Below, in pieces: positions 7,365 through 42,009 of a stretch of 64,000 nucleotides of DNA. Made by a program: the position numbers and the translations under genes. Below the pieces are notes generated by a model. The model did no database searches and was not told the DNA's origin. It saw nothing but the letters and a program-made list of their open reading frames with translations. The stretch's first letter is position 1. Each line of letters begins with the position of its first letter. Origin of the DNA: Cronobacter universalis NCTC 9529 (lineage in GTDB: Bacteria; Pseudomonadota; Gammaproteobacteria; Enterobacterales; Enterobacteriaceae). The stretch covers positions 1,426,001-1,490,000 of the forward strand of contig NZ_CP012257.1 in the NCBI RefSeq assembly GCF_001277175.1, read 5' to 3'.

Positions 7365-8957
7365 GTGTTAGTTACCAGCAACGTCACCATGCAGTTCGGC
7401 AGTAAGCCGCTGTTTGAAAACATTTCCGTCAAGTTCGGCGGCGGCAACCGTTACGGTCTGATTGGCGCCAACGGGAGCGGCAAGTCCACTTTCATGAAGA
7501 TCCTCGGCGGCGATTTACAGCCGAGCGCGGGCAACGTCTCGCTCGATCCTAACGAACGCATCGGTAAGCTGCGCCAGGATCAGTTCGCGTTTGAACAATA
7601 CACCGTGCTGGATACCGTGATCATGGGCCACGGCGAACTGTGGGAAGTGAAGCAGGAGCGCGATCGCATCTACGCGCTGCCGGAGATGAGCGAAGAAGAC
7701 GGCTATAAAGTGGCCGATCTCGAAGTGAAATATGGCGAGATGGACGGCTACAGCGCGGAGTCCCGCGCGGGCGAGCTGCTGCTGGGCGTCGGCATTCCGC
7801 TGGAGCAGCATTACGGCCCGATGAGCGAAGTCGCCCCTGGCTGGAAGCTGCGTGTCCTGCTGGCGCAGGCGCTGTTCTCTAACCCGGACATCCTGCTGCT
7901 CGATGAACCGACGAACAACCTGGACATCGACACCATTCGCTGGCTGGAACAGACGCTCAACGATCGCGACAGCACCATGATTATTATTTCGCACGACCGT
8001 CACTTCCTGAACATGGTCTGCACGCACATGGCGGATCTCGACTACGGCGAACTGCGCGTCTATCCGGGCAACTATGACGAATACATGACCGCCGCCACCC
8101 AGGCGCGCGAGCGTCTGCTGGCGGACAACGCCAAGAAAAAAGCCCAGATTGCCGACCTGCAATCGTTCGTGAGCCGCTTTAGCGCCAACGCCTCGAAATC
8201 CCGTCAGGCGACCTCCCGCGCCCGCCAGATTGATAAAATCAAACTGGAAGAGGTGAAAGCCTCCAGCCGCCAGAACCCGTTTATCCGCTTCGAGCAGGAT
8301 AAAAAGCTGTTCCGCAACGCGCTGGAAGTGGAAGCGATGACCAAAGGCTTCGATAACGGCCCGCTGTTTAAAAACGTCGGCCTGCTGCTGGAAGTGGGCG
8401 AGAAGCTGGCTATCCTCGGCGCCAACGGCGTGGGTAAATCCACCATGCTGAAAACGCTGGTGGGCGAACTGCAACCGGATAACGGCACCGTGAAATGGTC
8501 TGAGAATGCGCAGATTGGCTACTACGCGCAGGATCACGAATATGAGTTCGACAACGATCTGACCGTGTTTGAATGGATGAGCCAGTGGAAGCAGGAAGGC
8601 GACGACGAGCAGGCGGTTCGCAGCATTCTTGGACGTCTGCTGTTCAGCCAGGACGACATCAAAAAGCCCGCCAAAGTGCTCTCCGGTGGTGAAAAGGGGC
8701 GTATGCTGTTCGGCAAGCTGATGATGGAAAAACCGAACATTCTGGTGATGGACGAACCGACCAACCACCTGGATATGGAATCGATCGAATCGCTGAACGC
8801 CGCGCTGGAAATGTACCAGGGCACGCTGATTTTCGTCTCCCACGACCGTGAGTTCGTCAGCTCTCTCGCGACCCGCGTAATTGAAATCACCCCGGAACGC
8901 GTGGTGGATTTCTCCGGCGGCTACGAAGATTATCTGCGCAGCAAAGGCATCGAATAA
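7365..8957 (+). CDS. ybiT: ABC-F family ATPase YbiT
   Basis: YbiT is a cytosolic ABC-F protein, a family that acts on the ribosome; it has no membrane segments. Two ABC cassettes are visible: Walker [10 protein letters not shown] (about residue 38) with [11 protein letters not shown], and a second Walker [10 protein letters not shown] (about 355) with [10 protein letters not shown] and signature LSGGEKGR, joined by a basic linker rich in Arg/Lys ([17 protein letters not shown]). The GTG at 7365 with an upstream AGGA gives 530 residues, as in E. coli; the longer frame from 7293 has no support. It is followed by a REP pair and a bidirectional terminator. Confidence 0.95.
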
Positions 8958-8985
8958 TTTTCGCGTCGCCGCGTTGTTGGCGGAT

Positions 8986-9064
8986 GGCGGGTGCGCTAAC
9001 GCTTACCCGCCCTACGGGAAGTGTTTTTATCGTCAGTAGGGTGGGTAAGCGAAGCGCACCCACC
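8986..9064. repeat. REP-like palindrome pair downstream of ybiT
   Basis: Two inversely oriented copies occur: GGCGGGTGCGCTAACGCTTACCCGCCCTAC at 8986-9015 is split here as a palindromic unit starting GGCGGGTGCGC, and its mate GTAGGGTGGGTAAGCGAAGC... lies at 9036-9064. The same unit recurs at four other intergenic sites of the window. Confidence 0.85.
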
Positions 9065-9090
9065 GTTTGCGCGAAGATGAAACCGAAAAC

Positions 9091-9120
9091 AAAAAGGCGG
9101 GTCTGTGACCCGCCTTTTTA
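9091..9120. terminator. Bidirectional terminator between ybiT and the GH31 gene
   Basis: AAAAAGGCGGGTC and GACCCGCCTTTTT form a 13-bp stem with a 3-base loop and have T-runs on both strands. It serves the convergent ybiT and GH31 transcripts. Confidence 0.85.
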
Positions 9121-9133
9121 CGTTATTGCCCGC

Positions 9134-11497
9134 TTACCCTGCCCAGGTATTCGCTTCAGTGCCATTGATAATAAGACGCCGGGTTTCATCTGGTGGCAGC
9201 GTAACCGCCAGCTCACGCCATGCCGGACGGTAATCGCCGGTCGTGGAGAACGCCAGATGAATGGCGTCGGCGGTGCATTGCATCTGCCAGTTCACCCACA
9301 GCGCGTTGCCTTCCTGATAACCCCAGCTTTCGCCGTCATCCTCAAACAAAAGACCCGCACTTTGGCCGTTGCCCGGCACTGGGAAGAGCTTCAGCTCGCG
9401 CGTGTCGTCGCGCTGCGCATCTACATGACGCAGGCGTGCGCTGAGCGGCAGGCCGCTGCCTGCGCGCACCAGCAGCGGCAGACGTTCCAGCGGCGCGTCC
9501 AGCGTTACCTGCTGACCGCCGGCGTACCAGCTTCCCGTGTGGAAATCGTACCAGCCGTGGTCATTCGCGGGCAGCCAGAGCGTGCGGGTACGCGCGCCCG
9601 GCTCCACCACGCTCGCCACCAGCAGATCGCGGCCCAGCATAAACTCGTCGCACTCGCGGAAGGTCCGCGCGTCGTGTTCGTGATCGAGGAACGTCGGGCG
9701 CAACATCGGCTCGTCATCGGCGTGCGCCTGCCACAGCAGCGTATAAAGGTAGGGCAGCAGACGGTAGCGCAGTTCGATGGCGCTGCGGATGGCGGGCGTC
9801 ACCCCCGGGTACATCCACGGTTCGTTAACGGTGCGATCGTCGTTCCACGAGTGAATGGTAAAGCGCGGATGCATCACGCCGTTCTGTACCCAGCGCACAA
9901 ACAGCTCGGCGTCCGGTTTATCGCCGGAGAAGCCGCCGACGTCGTGGCCGACGTTGTACAGCCCCGACAGGCTCATGCCGAGCCCCATGCGAATGTTGTA
10001 GCGCAGCGTCTGCCAGCTGGTGCGGTTATCGCCGCTCCAGGTCTGGACGTAGCGCTGCATCCCGGCGCAGCCGGAGCGCGAGATCAGGTACGGGCGTTTC
10101 TCTGGCGCGAAGGTCTGCTGCGCTTCCATCGAGGCGCGCATCATTAACAGCGGCATCACCGGGCGGATATGTTTAATCGCCACCGGCTCGCCGAAGCCGT
10201 AGCAGCGCGCTTCGCCGTCCCAGACTTCATATTCGTTATTGTCATTCCAGGTGGAATCGATGCCCATCTCCAGCAGCTGCGTGGTGACGCCGTTCTGCCA
10301 CCAGGCGATGGTCGCCGGGTTAGTGAAATCGAGGTGCGATCCTTCGTCATCCCAGAAGCTGGAGCGCTCCGGCGCGTCGGTTTCGGAATCGCGGATAAAC
10401 AGCCCCTGCTGCGCGACCTCCTGATAGCGCGGGTGATCCTGCAACAGGCAGGGCTTGATGTTGGCGGCAAGCTTCAGCCCGGCGTCATGGAACGCGGCGC
10501 TCATCGCTTTCGGCTGCGGCACTTTGTCGTAGTTCCAGTTAAAGACGTAGCGCTTGTTATTGATGGAGGTGTACCCCGACGAGAGCTGGAAGGAGTCGCA
10601 CGGGATCGCGTGTTCTTCACACAGGCGAATAAAGTTCATCAACTGGTTCTGCGCATCCGGCGCGTCGGTGTAATGCATCGTCGAGCCGCTGTAGCCGAGG
10701 CTCCATTTCGGGCCGAACAGCGTTTTACCGGTCAGGCGCACAAAGGCTTTGGTGACATCCAGCACGCGCGGGCCGACGAACAGGTAGTAATCGATATCGC
10801 CGGCTTCGGCCTGCCAGCGGCGGTAGGGGAGGTGATAGTTGTCGATCTCATTGCCGAGATCGAGCCAGCAGCTGCTCAGGTTGTCGTAAAACAGCCCGAA
10901 ACTGACCTGCTCGCGGCGGGTAATGGTAAACGGAATATGTTTATACAGCGGATCGGTGCTGGCGGCGTTATAGCCCATCGCGTCAAGGTTACGCATCTCG
11001 AAGCGGCGGCCGGTGCGCTCCAGGTCGCCCGCTTTTTCGCCCAGCCCGTAATAGCGGTCATCTTTCTGGCGGCGCTGATAGTGCGCAACGCCGTCGCCAT
11101 GCGCGTTGATAAGATAAGCGCTGGTGGGACGATCGCTGGTAAGAAACTGCCACTGGCCGCTGTCGTCGCGGTAGTGCCACTCCAGCCACAGCGGCTGATG
11201 CACCGTCACGCGCAGTTTATCGCTGCTGATAACAAGGCGCTCCGGCGTTTCGTCGAGCGTAAAGCCCGGCAGGCTGAAGCCGTCGAGACTGTCGCGCGGG
11301 CGGCCTTCCCACGGCGGGTCGTCGCCTGGCGCGATACTCCAGGTACGGTTGAGCGCATACGCGCCGCGGCGTTTCACCGCCACGCGGAACAGGCCCGGCT
11401 CCAGCACCCACAGGCAGAGCGTGTGGACGTCATCGACGGTCAGCTTGACGTGGTGGTCGTCAGAATGGGTGAATCTCCAGCGTTTGAGGGTTTTCAT
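9134..11497 (-). CDS. Glycoside hydrolase family 31 alpha-glycosidase
   Basis: The product (787 aa) is a cytosolic retaining alpha-glycosidase of GH31. The catalytic barrel shows LGYSGSTMHYTD, the nucleophile region GIDSTWNDNNE (about residue 419) and the acid/base region SWNDDRTVNEPW (about 554), plus RSGCAGMQRYVQTWSGDN and GHDVGGFSGD. No signal peptide was seen. The start at 11497 (MKTLKRW) has GGGAG seven bases upstream; the longer frame is not supported. It lies 10 bp downstream of an MFS transporter gene and divergent from a LacI regulator, so it probably cleaves an alpha-linked glucoside or xyloside brought in by that transporter. The true substrate is not shown; GH31 also includes alpha-xylosidases and sulfoquinovosidases. 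Confidence 0.88.
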   Translation of the reverse strand: MKTLKRWRFTHSDDHHVKLTVDDVHTLCLWVLEPGLFRVAVKRRGAYALNRTWSIAPGDDPPWEGRPRDSLDGFSLPGFTLDETPERLVISSDKLRVTVHQPLWLEWHYRDDSGQWQFLTSDRPTSAYLINAHGDGVAHYQRRQKDDRYYGLGEKAGDLERTGRRFEMRNLDAMGYNAASTDPLYKHIPFTITRREQVSFGLFYDNLSSCWLDLGNEIDNYHLPYRRWQAEAGDIDYYLFVGPRVLDVTKAFVRLTGKTLFGPKWSLGYSGSTMHYTDAPDAQNQLMNFIRLCEEHAIPCDSFQLSSGYTSINNKRYVFNWNYDKVPQPKAMSAAFHDAGLKLAANIKPCLLQDHPRYQEVAQQGLFIRDSETDAPERSSFWDDEGSHLDFTNPATIAWWQNGVTTQLLEMGIDSTWNDNNEYEVWDGEARCYGFGEPVAIKHIRPVMPLLMMRASMEAQQTFAPEKRPYLISRSGCAGMQRYVQTWSGDNRTSWQTLRYNIRMGLGMSLSGLYNVGHDVGGFSGDKPDAELFVRWVQNGVMHPRFTIHSWNDDRTVNEPWMYPGVTPAIRSAIELRYRLLPYLYTLLWQAHADDEPMLRPTFLDHEHDARTFRECDEFMLGRDLLVASVVEPGARTRTLWLPANDHGWYDFHTGSWYAGGQQVTLDAPLERLPLLVRAGSGLPLSARLRHVDAQRDDTRELKLFPVPGNGQSAGLLFEDDGESWGYQEGNALWVNWQMQCTADAIHLAFSTTGDYRPAWRELAVTLPPDETRRLIINGTEANTWAG

Positions 11498-36580: not shown

Positions 36581-37303
36581 TTACGGGGTAGTGCCAACCG
36601 CTGTCGCCACTTTGTCGCCACTTCGGATCTTCTTCTCGTACTCATCTAATGCTTGCTCAACTTCGGCTAGATACGATTTGAAGGAGTCTAAGACCATGGT
36701 CAATGAACCGTTCATAAAAAGAACTTGTTTTCCATCCTTTTTAAATAAATCAGGATGAGCATCCATGAGTTCGAAAATGGGTTTAATGTTCTGTCCATCA
36801 TTTTCTATGTATTTAGCATCGTTGTGTGCACAGCTATTTCTCAACTTTGTTATTTTTTTGATGGTTGAATAGTGAGTCGATGTTTTCATGCCTAGTAGTT
36901 TTTTTATGAATAAATGACTTCTCTCAAATCCGCTACCTTTAAGGTCTGAAATGTTGATTGGGGTTTGATGTTTACGAGCAAAGTTATTGCAGAATTTTTC
37001 AATCTCGTGCTCAAACATTCCGAAAATAGTTAAAAAAACAGACCTTCGAAATATACTTGGATAATATTCCAAGAACATTTCATCTAGATCAACAGATGAA
37101 CTGTCAAGGCCCATGTAGTAATCGATGGACTGATAGAGACCTTCTTCAGGGGAAATGTCAATTACATATTCTTCTGGACCCTTTTCTTTATATTCTGTAA
37201 TCCCTTTGTCAATGGAAGATTCACTTTGTAGTATTAATGTTTCGATGATTTCAAATGTTAGGGAGAAATCGAAAACTGGAAATGTTAATGAGAATTTAAC
37301 CAT
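36581..37303 (-). CDS. HEPN-domain-like protein coupled to the prophage integrase
   Basis: The 240-residue protein is not in the core set of 186/P2 genes. Its helical second half contains KLRNSCAHND, giving R155-N-S-C-A-H160, the Rx4H motif with a polar residue after Arg that is typical of HEPN RNases and HEPN toxins. The first 60 residues are beta-rich or mixed. No membrane segment is seen. Its ATG overlaps the stop of integrase (TAATG), so it should be translated by coupling from the SOS-controlled int message. The last codons (GDKVAT) fall on a repeat that also lies near the other end of the prophage. A function in RNA cleavage during induction or abortive infection is inference. Confidence 0.7.
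   Translation of the reverse strand: MVKFSLTFPVFDFSLTFEIIETLILQSESSIDKGITEYKEKGPEEYVIDISPEEGLYQSIDYYMGLDSSSVDLDEMFLEYYPSIFRRSVFLTIFGMFEHEIEKFCNNFARKHQTPINISDLKGSGFERSHLFIKKLLGMKTSTHYSTIKKITKLRNSCAHNDAKYIENDGQNIKPIFELMDAHPDLFKKDGKQVLFMNGSLTMVLDSFKSYLAEVEQALDEYEKKIRSGDKVATAVGTTP
36602..36619. repeat. Left copy of tandem GTCGCC repeat, candidate integrase arm sites
   Basis: TGTCGCCACTTTGTCGCC matches the right copy at 44175-44192 in 17 of 18 positions. Each copy is two GTCGCC boxes, one helical turn apart, about 60-100 bp inside the proposed att cores. Confidence 0.55.
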
Positions 37304-38346
37304 TATGGAACCCTTTTAAAATTTACTTCATTGACACTCAGTGTTGCCAGAGGATTAAAGCGAAGTGCTGTTTCTAAGTGATCAGGCGCTAGATGAGCAT
37401 AACGCATTGTCATTTTGATGTCGTGATGTCCAAGGATTTTTTGTAAAGCAAGAATGTTACCGCCGGACATCATAAAGTGGGCTGCAAATGTGTGTCGAAG
37501 AACATGAGTCAGTTGTCCGCGTGGAAGGACAATTGAGGTTTTATCCATCACCGACAAAAATTGGAAATAGCAGTCAGTAAAGAATTTGAAGCCGTCCAGG
37601 GCAATGATTTCCTCATACAGCTCTTTGCTAATCGGAATGCTGCGGTTCTTTTTGCCTTTGGTTCTAGTAAATGTGATTCGGTATTTTGTAACCTGTGAAC
37701 GCGTAAGGTTTACAGCTTCGCGCCAACGTGCACCTGTGCTTAGGCAGATTTTGACAACCAAAGCGAGAAGGGGGCTTTGACGACGGCAGTCGTCCAATAG
37801 TTCTGTTATTTGCTCATGCGTTAGCCAGGCCATCTCTTTTTCAGCAATGGTGAATTTGCGCATGTTCTCAAGTGGGTTCGGTGCGCTCCATTCTCCAAGC
37901 CGGGCCAGCTCACTAAAAACTCCGCTCAGATAGCTTTGTTCTAAATTGATAGTTACCGGACTCGCTCCATTTTTCCATTTCTCACTGAAATAGATTTCTC
38001 CGGTCAGACGTTTGTCGCGGTAGTGTGCAAACATTTTAGCTGTGAGGTCTGTCGCAGGAGGATTTCCGAGGGCACCAACCATCAGGAGCAGCTTGTCATA
38101 AACATGTTCGCCAGCAGTCAAAGATTTGCCGTGCAGCTTGAACCAGAGTTCAACTATGTCTTTTAATGAACGACGGTCTACCGATTCGCCCAGCCAGGGT
38201 TTTGCTTCAGTTTCCTCCATGGTGTAGCGTTCAAAGGCCAGAGCTTCACCTTTTGTTGCAAACTGCTTGCGGACACGCCTGCCAGAGCGTCCCATGGGAT
38301 AACACTCGCAGAGCCATTTTCCTGTTGTGAGTTTTCGTACTGCCAT
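37303..38346 (-). CDS. int: Tyrosine integrase of the 186/P2 type
   Basis: This 347-residue site-specific recombinase inserts and excises the prophage. The N-terminal arm-binding domain (VRKLTTGKWLCECYPMGRSGRRVRKQFATKGEALAFE pattern) is of the P2/186 type. The catalytic set is present: Arg207 (STGARWREA), Lys in TKGKKNRSIP (about 230-233), His281/Arg284 (HVLRH), His307-His308 (LGHHD) and the nucleophile Tyr316 (MRYAHL). ATG 38346 has GGAGG nine bases upstream; the ORF start five codons earlier has no ribosome site. The gene is intact, so excision or transposase-like mobility of the remnant could still be possible. The HEPN-like gene follows by overlap. Confidence 0.93.
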   Translation of the reverse strand: MAVRKLTTGKWLCECYPMGRSGRRVRKQFATKGEALAFERYTMEETEAKPWLGESVDRRSLKDIVELWFKLHGKSLTAGEHVYDKLLLMVGALGNPPATDLTAKMFAHYRDKRLTGEIYFSEKWKNGASPVTINLEQSYLSGVFSELARLGEWSAPNPLENMRKFTIAEKEMAWLTHEQITELLDDCRRQSPLLALVVKICLSTGARWREAVNLTRSQVTKYRITFTRTKGKKNRSIPISKELYEEIIALDGFKFFTDCYFQFLSVMDKTSIVLPRGQLTHVLRHTFAAHFMMSGGNILALQKILGHHDIKMTMRYAHLAPDHLETALRFNPLATLSVNEVNFKRVP

Positions 38347-38441: not shown

Positions 38442-39122
38442 TTAGTGCACTTTTGTCACATCTATGTTTTTATCGATTTTGCCTCTATCACTGTAGGACC
38501 TTTGTTCTTTTCTTTTAATGTATAATTCCCAGCGAATATTATTCATTATAATGGCATAAATATTAAAAATAAAAGTCTTAACTACTAATACTAAGTAAAT
38601 AAGACTAGTCCCTATAAGGCAATATCCTAATTTGATAATTAACTCTTTTATCAATTTTGAACCTGGAATTAAATCAATGATATTGCCAATCATCCCATTT
38701 GACTGACAAAATAGAATTATAACTAGATAAATGAAAGTAAACGTAATAAAAGAAATAAAAACTTTCATAAACGCCATGAAGTTATATTTCAACGTGGGCA
38801 TCTGTGTTTTTTTATGCTGTACTGACATCATTTGAAGAAACATATCGGGCTTAGATAGTGTTGCAAATATAGTGAAACCTGCAATAAGAAAACCTAGGGT
38901 TGTTACTGCAAAGTTGAAACCAATCAAAGCCCAGTTTCTGATATCAGAGACTAAATGAGACGTATCCTTCTCAATGAAAAAAGAGTTTGTCAATAAAAAA
39001 ATAGACGCTGCGAGCAAAATGCAAACATGGAATGTACTAATAGTAATCCGTTTGCAGAGCAAGTAAACATCCCAAAGATTTTTTTCTTTGGTTATTTCTT
39101 TAGCGTCTATTTTATTTATCAT
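38442..39122 (-). CDS. Four-TM membrane protein of a prophage two-gene module
   Basis: The 226-residue protein has four hydrophobic segments: about residues 29-50, 68-92, 115-140 and 160-195, with a basic C-terminal tail (YIKRKEQRSYSDRGKIDKN). No transporter or enzyme signature is seen. Its ATG overlaps the stop of the upstream soluble gene (TGATG), so the proteins are made together. The arrangement of a soluble partner and a small multi-pass membrane protein recalls membrane-acting anti-phage modules such as Kiwa, but I see no known Kiwa domain and gene order differs. It ends 96 bp before the int start, upstream of the int promoter. AT-rich composition sets it apart from the backbone. Confidence 0.72.
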   Translation of the reverse strand: MINKIDAKEITKEKNLWDVYLLCKRITISTFHVCILLAASIFLLTNSFFIEKDTSHLVSDIRNWALIGFNFAVTTLGFLIAGFTIFATLSKPDMFLQMMSVQHKKTQMPTLKYNFMAFMKVFISFITFTFIYLVIILFCQSNGMIGNIIDLIPGSKLIKELIIKLGYCLIGTSLIYLVLVVKTFIFNIYAIIMNNIRWELYIKRKEQRSYSDRGKIDKNIDVTKVH

Positions 39123-40147
39123 CAGCTAAACCTTTGATATATATTGCTAATAATTCTAATCGTCTTTTGTGAAAGAGCTCTGGGTAGAGATATCTTACTT
39201 TCATTTACAAGCTCTTCATATCGCTCATAACATTCATTTGCAGCCTCGTTGGTATTTTTTGATAATTCATCTATCTCACTTAACAAAACAAAATCATCAT
39301 TACTACCTTTTATTATATCACCTTCGTCATCATATCCTTTAATATTTATTCCTGAATTTGCTAATCTGGTTGCTGATGTGAGTTGTTCTAATACGGCATC
39401 ATGATTCAAACCTGAATCGGTGTTTGAAAAACGAATGGACGTAGAAATACTGCCCATTTCTTCTCCAGCGCTTTCAAGTGACTCCCAAAATTCGTCGTTA
39501 TCAATTTCCTCTTGGTTCGTAGGGAGTAGTTTTACAGAAACATTTTGAATTTTTCTGAAATTTTCAATGAATTGCTCTAGGCTTTGTTCATCGGTTAAAG
39601 GTGTAATTCTTAATTTAGGTCGTACGATTTCACTTCGTAAGCTTTTTTTAGTAACTCGAGGTAAGTCAGGATCTACTTCTCGTGCCCTTTTTGCCGTTTC
39701 GTATAAGTGAGATATGTATTTTTCATACTCTATATTTAAGAAACATTGACTTGTTGACTGGAAGTTTTGAATTGTAGGAGCACCACTAACTTCCTTGCAA
39801 AGAATTAATCTGTGCGTATTTAATATTAAAAGAAAGAAAGAACTAGGTGCTGTTTCAAGCTCATCATGATCTTCGACTAAATCAGCACCATCAAATACCT
39901 GTTCTCTGGTTAGTAATGTATTTTTAATAATCCGCCCCTTAATTCCTAGTACAGGAGGGGTTGCTTCTTCATCAAGAATGACGCATTCAGTATCAATGAA
40001 AAAGAATTCTGATTTATCGGATATTCTGCGAATGTTCGCCATTTCTAAAAAAGATGGGAAAACGATTTCATCATAGTAATCCAATAAAACTTCATCACCA
40101 AAACGTAGAGTGTAATTTCCAAACTCGAGCTTTTTAACAAAATCCAT
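39122..40147 (-). CDS. Soluble partner of the prophage two-gene module, 341 aa
   Basis: I do not recognise this family. The first 150 residues look like a mixed alpha/beta domain (FGNYTLRFGDEVLLDYYDEIVFPSFLE, FFLLILNTHRLILCKEVSG) and the remainder is acidic and helical (TPLTDEQSLEQFIENFRKI, DELSKNTNEAANECYERYEELVNESK). No nuclease, protease or NTPase motif was seen. It starts 16 bp after the CI stop with GAGG upstream, so it should be expressed from the lysogenic promoter with the repressor. It overlaps the four-TM gene. Position between cI and int, where P2-like phages often carry cargo, supports a lysogenic-conversion or defence role; this is inference. Confidence 0.72.
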   Translation of the reverse strand: MDFVKKLEFGNYTLRFGDEVLLDYYDEIVFPSFLEMANIRRISDKSEFFFIDTECVILDEEATPPVLGIKGRIIKNTLLTREQVFDGADLVEDHDELETAPSSFFLLILNTHRLILCKEVSGAPTIQNFQSTSQCFLNIEYEKYISHLYETAKRAREVDPDLPRVTKKSLRSEIVRPKLRITPLTDEQSLEQFIENFRKIQNVSVKLLPTNQEEIDNDEFWESLESAGEEMGSISTSIRFSNTDSGLNHDAVLEQLTSATRLANSGINIKGYDDEGDIIKGSNDDFVLLSEIDELSKNTNEAANECYERYEELVNESKISLPRALSQKTIRIISNIYQRFS

Positions 40148-40162: not shown

Positions 40163-40765
40163 TTAAATAGTACGGTATTGTGAGAAGATTTTTGCAACAA
40201 GCTTTATATCTTCTTTTTTACAATCAAATGTTAAATGATCATCTGTTACCCGAAGATTACCTCCAGGTAATAAAAAGATTTGTTTTAACTTAAAATTATT
40301 TTGGTATTGAACAAGCCACATGCCATCTTCAATATTAGATTTATTTATATGTGCAATATTTGTGCAATGATGGTCCTGTATTGCTAATAAATCCTTAAAA
40401 TGAGGAAGCAGGGTTTTATCTATAAATAAATGACCAGCATCGAAAATTTGATTGTCAATTAGTTTTACTTTCGAAATTTTTGAAACTTCACTTTCTTCAC
40501 TCTTTTCACTTTCAAATACTGGCCCGCGCCCAGTAGTTAACCAAGTGAGGGTTGCTCCGGTTTCGATGGCACATTGGATGATCCAGTCAGAAGGGAAGGT
40601 GTCTCTTAGATATCGATTAGCCAAAGTACTTTTGGAGACCTTCAGGTGATCAGCTAGCGCTTGGCGCGTTGTGAAGCCATATGCTGAAACTAGCCTTTCG
40701 ATAGCTTCTCGCCCACCGCTCTCAAAATTCAGCGGGATCTCATTTGGGTACTTTGATGTTGACAT
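40163..40765 (-). CDS. cI: Phage 186-type CI repressor
   Basis: This 200-residue repressor keeps the lytic genes silent in the lysogen. The N-terminal domain (AIERLVSAYGFTTRQALADHLKVSKSTLANRYLRD, then ALETGATLTWLTTGRGP-like text at about residues 65-82) is of the Bac_CI_repr type and strongly resembles phage 186 CI; the C-terminal part (DGMWLVQYQNNFKLKQIFLLPGGNLRV) matches the 186 oligomerisation domain rather than a LexA-type protease, so RecA-driven self-cleavage is not expected. It is divergent from the Apl/Cox-type gene and is followed by the two-gene cargo module. Confidence 0.88.
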   Translation of the reverse strand: MSTSKYPNEIPLNFESGGREAIERLVSAYGFTTRQALADHLKVSKSTLANRYLRDTFPSDWIIQCAIETGATLTWLTTGRGPVFESEKSEESEVSKISKVKLIDNQIFDAGHLFIDKTLLPHFKDLLAIQDHHCTNIAHINKSNIEDGMWLVQYQNNFKLKQIFLLPGGNLRVTDDHLTFDCKKEDIKLVAKIFSQYRTI

Positions 40766-40857: not shown

Positions 40858-42009
40858 ATGACACCTAATATTTCAATCTCATTGGCCGTACCTTCTATTT
40901 CCATTGAAAAGTACAGTGAACTCACAGGCTTATCTATAGACACAATTAATGACATGTTGGCCGACGGTCGTCTAATTCGGCACCGCTTACGCAAAGATAA
41001 AAAGCGCGAAAAAGTTATGATCAACATTGCTGCTATGACTGTAGAGGCGCATTATCCAGAGCTGGCGTCCGGGCTGCATCTGCCGAAATTCGCGCGGGTG
41101 GTCGCGCACAGTGAGCCGGTGAGCAGCGGGAATTTTTCCGATCCGTTCCGCCCGCGCTACGCCGTTGACGTGCAGCTGCTTGACGCAGACGGTAAGCCGG
41201 ACGGTAACACGCCGGTGTATTCCGCTGTGCCGCTGCCGGTGCCGATGGCCGGTAATGATTCGGGGATGTTCCAGTTTCCGCCCGAAGGCACGCTGGTTGA
41301 AGTGGGCTTTACCGGCGGGCGTGCGGATAAGCCGTTTGTGCGCCAGACCGTACCGGATGGCACAAGCCTGCCGGACGTGAAGCCGGGCGAGCAGCTGCAA
41401 CAGCAGCGGGAAGAAGTGTCACAGCGCGTCACGCAGGCCGGTGACTGGGTGCGCAAGACTGACCAGACCATCAGCGAAACATCCATGAGCCGCGAAGTGA
41501 CCGCAGACCGGGAGCGCCGCGAGCTGGTCAGCCGTGAAACCACGGTAAACGCCACGGATAAAACCACGGTACTGGGAACCGTCAGCATGCTGGCCGGTGC
41601 CGTTCAGCACGTGGCCACGGGCGATTACGCCATCGCAGCCAGCGGCAAATTTCTGGCCCGCGTGGAAGGCGACGCCGAAGCCGAAATTGACGGTCAGCAG
41701 AAAACGCACGTTAAGGGCGGCATCAAGACGCAGACCGATGGCGCACTTACCGAGAAAATCGCGCAGCTGCGTAAAAGCATCGCAGCGGGCGGCCAGCAAA
41801 TCATGGGGCCAACGGTACACATCGGCAGCGAAGGTGTTAACACGCTGCAAATGATGCTGGAAACCATCGACCTGCTGGCACAGCTGGCCAGCCAGTGCGC
41901 AAACCATTCACACCCCGGCACCGGCGGGCCGACCACTGCCGCCGCGTTCAGCCAGACGGCAACGCAGGCGACTCAGACCCGCAGCCGTTATGAAAAGATA
42001 ATAGCGTAG
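40858..42009 (+). CDS. Chimeric gene: Apl/Cox-type regulator fused in frame to a phage baseplate protein
   Basis: Residues 1 to about 62 (IEKYSELTGLSIDTINDMLADGRLIRHRL, REKVMINIAAMTVEA) form the winged-helix start of a 186 Apl / P2 Cox-type excisionase-regulator. From about HYPELASGLHLPKFARVV the remaining 320 residues are a baseplate spike-type protein: an OB-fold-like stretch (DPFRPRYAVDVQLLDADG, GTLVEVGFTGGRADKPFVRQTVP), a charged helix and a beta-helix-like repeat region ending CANHSHPGTGGP. Base composition changes abruptly from AT-rich to GC-rich near 41050. A deletion of the replication, head and most tail genes joined the two genes in frame. AGGA 10 bases upstream should still drive translation; the hybrid is probably nonfunctional as a baseplate part. 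Confidence 0.82.
   Translation: MTPNISISLAVPSISIEKYSELTGLSIDTINDMLADGRLIRHRLRKDKKREKVMINIAAMTVEAHYPELASGLHLPKFARVVAHSEPVSSGNFSDPFRPRYAVDVQLLDADGKPDGNTPVYSAVPLPVPMAGNDSGMFQFPPEGTLVEVGFTGGRADKPFVRQTVPDGTSLPDVKPGEQLQQQREEVSQRVTQAGDWVRKTDQTISETSMSREVTADRERRELVSRETTVNATDKTTVLGTVSMLAGAVQHVATGDYAIAASGKFLARVEGDAEAEIDGQQKTHVKGGIKTQTDGALTEKIAQLRKSIAAGGQQIMGPTVHIGSEGVNTLQMMLETIDLLAQLASQCANHSHPGTGGPTTAAAFSQTATQATQTRSRYEKIIA

Follow-up and report, generated by a model that had tools for sequence, protein, structure and literature searches.

A prophage gene pair of Cronobacter universalis as a probable divergent branch of the RexAB-type exclusion systems

What is the function of the two genes that separate the repressor gene from the integrase gene in a prophage of Cronobacter universalis NCTC 9529? 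These genes, here called A and B, lie within a stretch of 64,000 nucleotides (nt) of contig NZ_CP012257.1 (positions 1,426,001 to 1,490,000; the window, whose own coordinates are used throughout), and a preliminary description had taken them for a possible undescribed membrane-acting immunity system. Our analysis leads to a more familiar answer: A-B is probably a divergent RexAB-type abortive-infection (exclusion) pair, a known kind of system in a new branch. As A has the predicted fold of lambda RexA and stands in the lambda gene order, the pair would belong to the RexAB kind, and "undescribed" is too strong a word for it. The name RexAB is also used for an unrelated Gram-positive RexAB, which is not meant here. 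Literature searches on RexAB, DUF4747 and integron terms, mostly of open-access coverage, brought up no report of the A-B branch in titles or the opening lines of abstracts. Five systems of the RexAB kind have been described, with the membrane protein taken as the effector in four of the five (PMC12894663).

The order on the minus strand is cI, A, B, int. The stop codon of A (TGA) and the start codon of B (ATG) overlap by one base in the sequence TGATG, and 95 nt separate B from int. The preliminary description had the two minus-strand genes, their overlap and their place between cI and int in agreement with these coordinates; its short spacing behind cI also stands, at 15 nt from the cI stop to the ATG of A rather than the 16 bp claimed. 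The cI product combines the domains Phage_CI_repr and Phage_CI_C, an architecture that we take to be that of a P2/186-type repressor. Four hydrophobic segments in B and none in A bear out the claim of a soluble protein followed by a four-transmembrane (four-TM) protein. The G+C content is 34% for A and 30% for B, against 57% for the window. Both are real genes, because A has 166 and B 278 relatives at an expectation value E<=1e-3, and because comparison with the E. coli copy gives a ratio of nonsynonymous to synonymous substitution rates (dN/dS) of 0.080 for A and 0.095 for B. A-B has thus been under purifying selection ever since the two copies diverged; the ratio covers the whole of that time and does not speak to the period after the prophage decayed. 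In this run dS was uncomputable for int against E. coli and for B against the copy at locus L017.

The assignment to RexAB can be explained from the predicted structure of A. The AlphaFold2 model (predicted local distance difference test, pLDDT, 87.2; predicted template-modelling score, pTM, 0.84) has lambda RexA (8twq) as its top PDB match, clearly apart from other scaffolds in both structure comparisons, and the predicted protein shows the two-domain fold of RexA. The same scaffold was also found in RdgC, CENP-N and Iml3 in the structure search with A, so that function is not fixed by the fold alone. Residues 177-290 form a middle domain that is an acidic stretch (9 K+R, 22 D+E), while residues 291-341 are helical and only slightly acidic (7 K+R, 9 D+E); the C-terminus earlier described as acidic and helical is indeed helical, but the acidity sits in the middle domain. 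In BFVD, five unannotated phage proteins of 277-322 aa match the A model with E 6e-6 or better and are perhaps further RexA-fold proteins.

B was found beside A at all 26 A loci (21 loci found by scanning genome and viral contigs with A alone, plus the window, two plasmid records and one record each from E. coli and a phage), always downstream on the same strand and either overlapping or no more than about 110 nt apart. Among the viral contigs, scanning with B alone and with A alone led to an identical set of 8 contigs. The two-gene module of soluble and membrane protein that had been proposed is therefore supported: homologous pairs co-occur elsewhere, often near defence genes, and neither protein matched a phage structural or regulatory family. 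Of 5426 complete E. coli genomes, 13 carry the pair. Nucleotide identity to the E. coli copy is 88% for A and 89% for B, above the 77% of both int and cI, which makes an exchange of the pair as one unit probable. The order cI-A'-B'-int recurs in phage 4LV2017 (Peduoviridae in its record) with identities of 42% for A and 43% for B. A 4LV2017-like prophage on a Klebsiella conjugative plasmid (L026:9161-9658, plus strand) has A at full length and a B match shorter than in the phage; this locus also has the widest A-B gap. No terminator-like site was found between cI and A in the window, and with the 15-nt gap this makes co-expression of A-B in the lysogen likely, as the preliminary description had it.

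Protein B is predicted to be helical, with hydrophobic segments at residues 26-44, 71-89, 121-139 and 174-192. Its charge pattern places the N-end, the C-end and the central loop between TM2 and TM3 (residues 90-120) on the cytoplasmic side. The best-conserved parts, measured over 61 sequences as the mean share of the commonest residue, are TM2 (0.93), TM4 (0.80) and the central loop (0.79). One B relative of 285 aa (P0230) carries a fused C-terminal HTH_73 domain (43.6 bits).

A number of points weigh against a RexAB assignment. The whole-chain TM-score (template-modelling score) of A against RexA is low, 0.28-0.34, with a root-mean-square deviation of 14 Å; this would fit differently oriented domains, without demonstrating them. 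Protein A is acidic (isoelectric point, pI, 4.6; family median 5.8, RexA family 6.6), which disfavours DNA binding; the CarolAnn gp44 protein has a pI of 5.6 and yet is reported to bind DNA (PMC11077077). Neither A nor B matches the RexA/RexB models of Pfam (PF15969/PF15968) or PADLOC at E up to 1, while the lambda proteins RexA and RexB, run as controls, score 326.8 and 305.4 bits in Pfam and 364.3 and 202.4 in PADLOC. The experimentally tested systems of CarolAnn and Butters likewise miss these models. In hhalign, A against RexA is weak (probability 2.6, E 0.015-0.017): the RexA profile of 24 sequences and the A profile of 22 sequences reach a score of 25.1 over A residues 244-314, where the insert domain ends in a strand-helix-strand unit, and all 150 of 150 column-shuffled RexA profiles stay below that score (mean 15.7, sd 2.8, max 24.6). 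No similarity was detectable by hhalign between A and the CarolAnn/Sbash/Sejanus group. Profile comparison detects nothing between RexA and the CarolAnn group either, although both are experimentally Rex-like, and the test thus has little power. The sequence evidence for kinship between A and RexA is thin. B lacks a clear fold match and has no sequence similarity to RexB, CarolAnn gp43 or Butters gp31, nor do RexB structures occur among the structure matches of the B model, so that "RexB-like" refers to topology and position. A terminator-like site on the minus (coding) strand at the beginning of B (39091-39072) would, if genuine, reduce the expression of B, which tempers the claim of expression in the lysogen; such sites occur at chance frequency (3 vs 2.5 in shuffles). 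From the literature, lambda RexA is reported to act in regulation independently of any defence (PMC11077077), the two Butters proteins appear to have reversed roles (PMC7542560), and P. putida RexB is reported to cause dye uptake but no depolarisation (PMC12894663).

Comparison with the described systems provides further insight into where the branch may stand. With lambda RexAB the window shares the order of cI, rexA and rexB in the immunity region, the predicted two-domain fold of A and a four-TM partner directly downstream. The proteins differ in length (341 against 279 aa for A; 226 aa, or about 203 in many listed relatives, against 144 aa for B), A and B overlap by one base where rexA and rexB are 15 nt apart, and the lambda models remain unmatched. 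The RexABpp pair of P. putida prophage P1 (PP_5643/PP_5644) is a tested defence system that is likewise prophage-borne and downstream of a CI-like repressor, with a soluble RexA-fold protein and a four-TM protein whose ends are both on the same side; it lies two genes away from cI (PMC12894663). At most 2 of the 7 quoted RexBpp residues occur at the same positions in any of the 120 listed B relatives, in an unaligned and therefore weak test; RexABpp may be another subfamily than A-B.

The actinobacteriophage systems are similar in design. The Gordonia phage CarolAnn (gp44/gp43) and the Mycobacterium phage Sbash (gp30/gp31) each have a soluble protein and a four-TM protein, both of which are reported to be needed for defence; the CarolAnn pair is reported to be co-expressed with the repressor, the Sbash pair to be driven by its own promoter. 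No sequence similarity is detectable for B against CarolAnn gp43 or, as said above, for A against this group. What links the two groups weakly is DUF4747: a precomputed tag of this family is carried by 19 of the 120 best A relatives (of 166). Among five tagged relatives that were rescanned, two matched (P0098, 21.5 bits; P0105, 18.4 bits), both below the curated Pfam cut-off of 27 bits (PF15931); A of the window gave no match to DUF4747 at E up to 1. A 2026 paper on CapK-CapS counts 17 "DUF4747/CarolAnn" operons downstream of CapK-CapS (PMC13373217). Some of these may belong to the A-B branch; they are stand-alone operons behind regulators, to be compared with the WYL gene at one of our loci (L005), and CapK-CapS genes were absent among the 20 neighbours of A-B relatives scanned with Pfam. 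The Mycobacterium phage Butters (gp30/gp31) again pairs a soluble with a four-TM protein, and the soluble partners have a short motif in common, LRITPLTDEQSL in A and MRFTPLSDPERL in gp30, the best local match for gp30 and not significant alone (probability 4-5). Apart from the motif no sequence similarity is detectable, and in Butters the soluble partner is reported to protect alone.

The known systems suggest how the pair could work. A and B would be made together from the cI transcript and be harmless at rest. On infection by another phage, A would sense a phage product or a replication intermediate, probably acting as a DNA-binding dimer as RexA does; for CarolAnn, toxicity is reported to be triggered by a phage product. 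A would then act on B, most likely via the conserved cytoplasmic loop between TM2 and TM3, which in Sbash gp31 is needed. B would open or damage the inner membrane, growth would stop and the incoming phage would not be produced, in line with lambda, CarolAnn, Sbash and P. putida RexAB, all reported to need both proteins. In P. putida, RexB is described as a growth-stopping membrane effector that is switched on by RexA overproduction (PMC12894663).

The surroundings of the relatives bear on the same question. We scanned 20 of 100 listed neighbour open reading frames (ORFs) at genome loci with Pfam. Just upstream of the pair lie HsdM and HsdS at L006 and, on a Vibrio contig (L001), a Zot-family gene as in filamentous phages (8044-9411, plus strand). 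Among the other loci, L003 has a GmrSD restriction gene, L004 a DUF2806 gene whose Abi_alpha match is weak and below threshold, L005 a WYL-domain regulator together with a Cas3_HD match below threshold, L007 an FRG-domain gene, L009 RtcB, L010 a restriction-endonuclease domain and L011 a NOV_C gene. The remaining nine neighbours comprise IclR, aldehyde dehydrogenase, GH109, HlyD, an HTH_38 protein, CARDB and three without a match. With PADLOC at E<=1e-10, the 39 ORFs within 3 kb of the pair matched 182 families, while 38 control ORFs at 6 kb or more from it matched 17, every one of them through a single type IIG restriction gene (L003). This comparison used mechanical ORFs of at least 100 aa at the 8 of 13 genome loci with full flanks on both sides, with ORFs at 3-6 kb excluded. 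As many PADLOC models match one gene, counting families exaggerates the difference; judged by family type, the matches come from at least four near genes. The control is conservative because it was drawn from the same contigs, but eight loci are few. These results support that A-B relatives often lie near defence genes. On two gammaproteobacterial contigs attC-like sites frame the pair (L002:9864-9977 and L002:11630-11720; L007:11630-11712), a reading made by eye and by folding, with folding z-values of -5.75 upstream and an unconvincing -0.81 downstream in L002, and -2.59 downstream in L007. This suggests that A-B travels as an integron cassette there.

Could the pair instead be mainly a regulatory module of the prophage? 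A would tip the lysogeny switch by binding DNA at the cI/cox promoters, and B would only tether or titrate A at the membrane. Lambda RexA is reported to bias the bistable switch independently of RexB (PMC11077077), and the pair adjoins cI in 4LV2017, E. coli and the window, as rexAB does in lambda and genes 44/43 do in CarolAnn. Relatives, however, have HsdM/HsdS, GmrSD, WYL or RtcB genes as neighbours or are framed by attC-like sites, with no cI-type repressor among the 20 scanned neighbours at those loci. Moreover, the genes between cox and baseplate have been lost from this prophage, so that little would remain for a switch to act on. We regard a mainly regulatory function as unlikely.

An arrangement as in Butters, with A alone as the antiviral effector and B as a membrane anchor that holds A inactive, is equally doubtful. 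Butters gp30 alone is reported to block PurpleHaze and to inhibit Alma, with gp31 dampening gp30 (PMC7542560), and it has the best local match to the motif of A. That match is insignificant by itself; the high conservation of TM2, TM4 and the cytoplasmic loop of B goes beyond the need of a mere anchor, and the membrane protein is the presumed effector in most of the described systems, as cited above.

Still less probable is that A-B is some other defence system of soluble and membrane protein, Kiwa-like or not, in which the likeness to RexA would be a coincidence of a common DNA-binding scaffold. Such a coincidence would agree with the occurrence of that scaffold in RdgC, CENP-N and Iml3 and with a B that has no detectable RexB similarity. 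RexA stands well apart from the other scaffolds in both structure comparisons, though, and the agreement extends to gene order, partner topology and pairing. The parallel to Kiwa drawn in the preliminary description is not seen in sequence: Kiwa (KwaA/KwaB) models are absent among the PADLOC matches of A and B at E up to 1, in a library that presumably holds them. An ordinary moron or lysis-related membrane pair devoid of an immune role is very improbable, for one very weak lysis-family match of B (phrog_5404, E 0.12) is set against a place behind cI rather than among late genes and against conservation outside P2-like phages, often near defence genes.

If A-B is a RexAB pair, a wider picture is possible, although we stop short of favouring it. 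RexAB would be a broad mobile immune family, and the A-B branch would move as a unit through prophages (186/P2-like and filamentous), integron cassettes and chromosomal defence islands under WYL-type control, a RexA-fold sensor triggering a larger four-TM effector everywhere. In that case the RexAB model systems would represent single tips scattered over a large family, and what triggers RexA, a question 70 years old, would become approachable in easily handled E. coli prophages. RexAB ranks among the oldest exclusion systems known, and both its trigger and the precise injury to the membrane are described as still unsettled (PMC12894663). A compact branch in a swappable cargo slot, missed by the PADLOC and Pfam models used, is new material for the trigger question, and suggests that defence surveys built on lambda-type models would miss such systems.

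Table 1 Features of the window around the A-B pair
Feature	Position	Strand	Description	Evidence
HEPN/AbiD-like protein (weak)	36581-37303	-	240 aa; neighbour, outside the A-B pair	PADLOC AbiD E 4.2e-4; Pfam HEPN/Abi_2 below cut-off
int	37303-38346 (from its ATG)	-	phage integrase (tyrosine recombinase)	PF00589, PF24624; phrog_1
B	38442-39122	-	226 aa, four-TM; proposed RexB-like membrane effector	ORF list
A	39122-40147	-	341 aa, soluble, RexA-like; proposed infection sensor and trigger	ORF list
cI-type repressor	40163-40765	-	probable source of the A-B transcript	PF07022 (99.2 bits), PF16452 (59.9 bits)
cox/baseplate fusion	40858-42009	+	cox N-terminus fused in frame to C-terminal part of ESSI-2-type baseplate protein	phrog_575 on residues 1-64, phrog_2258 on 59-383

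The prophage is a decayed remnant. The fusion of cox and baseplate sequences in one ORF argues that the segment between them was deleted; the relative of its C-terminal part in the Cronobacter phage ESSI-2 is a baseplate protein of 566 aa, and the DNA match to ESSI-2 has 94.8% identity over 964 bases. The flank at 30354-34667 matches E. coli ybjI, ybjJ and rcdA (identities to L022 of 66, 74 and 62%), and rcdA also borders E. coli prophages that carry A-B (2 of 13 carriers examined). Across related E. coli prophages the slots cI-int and int-rcdA hold differing genes. ETEC4091 and FDAARGOS_1283 have A-B in the first slot and nothing in the second; PE15 has a 63-aa protein in the first and a Panacea-domain protein with a hypothetical protein in the second (L044:3591-4819, minus strand). 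In the window, A-B fills the cI-int slot, and the HEPN-like protein in the int-att (attachment site) slot is 78% identical to the HEPN-like protein that YZLc4-1 has in its int-rcdA slot; it is a candidate second defence cargo. In P2-related phages of Vibrionaceae, the cI-int slot is a reported hotspot of defence (PMC9122126). In YZLc4-1 this slot holds an unrelated protein of 314 aa (L043:6945-7889, minus strand), by eye a coiled-coil protein with hydrophobic segments and a candidate cargo.
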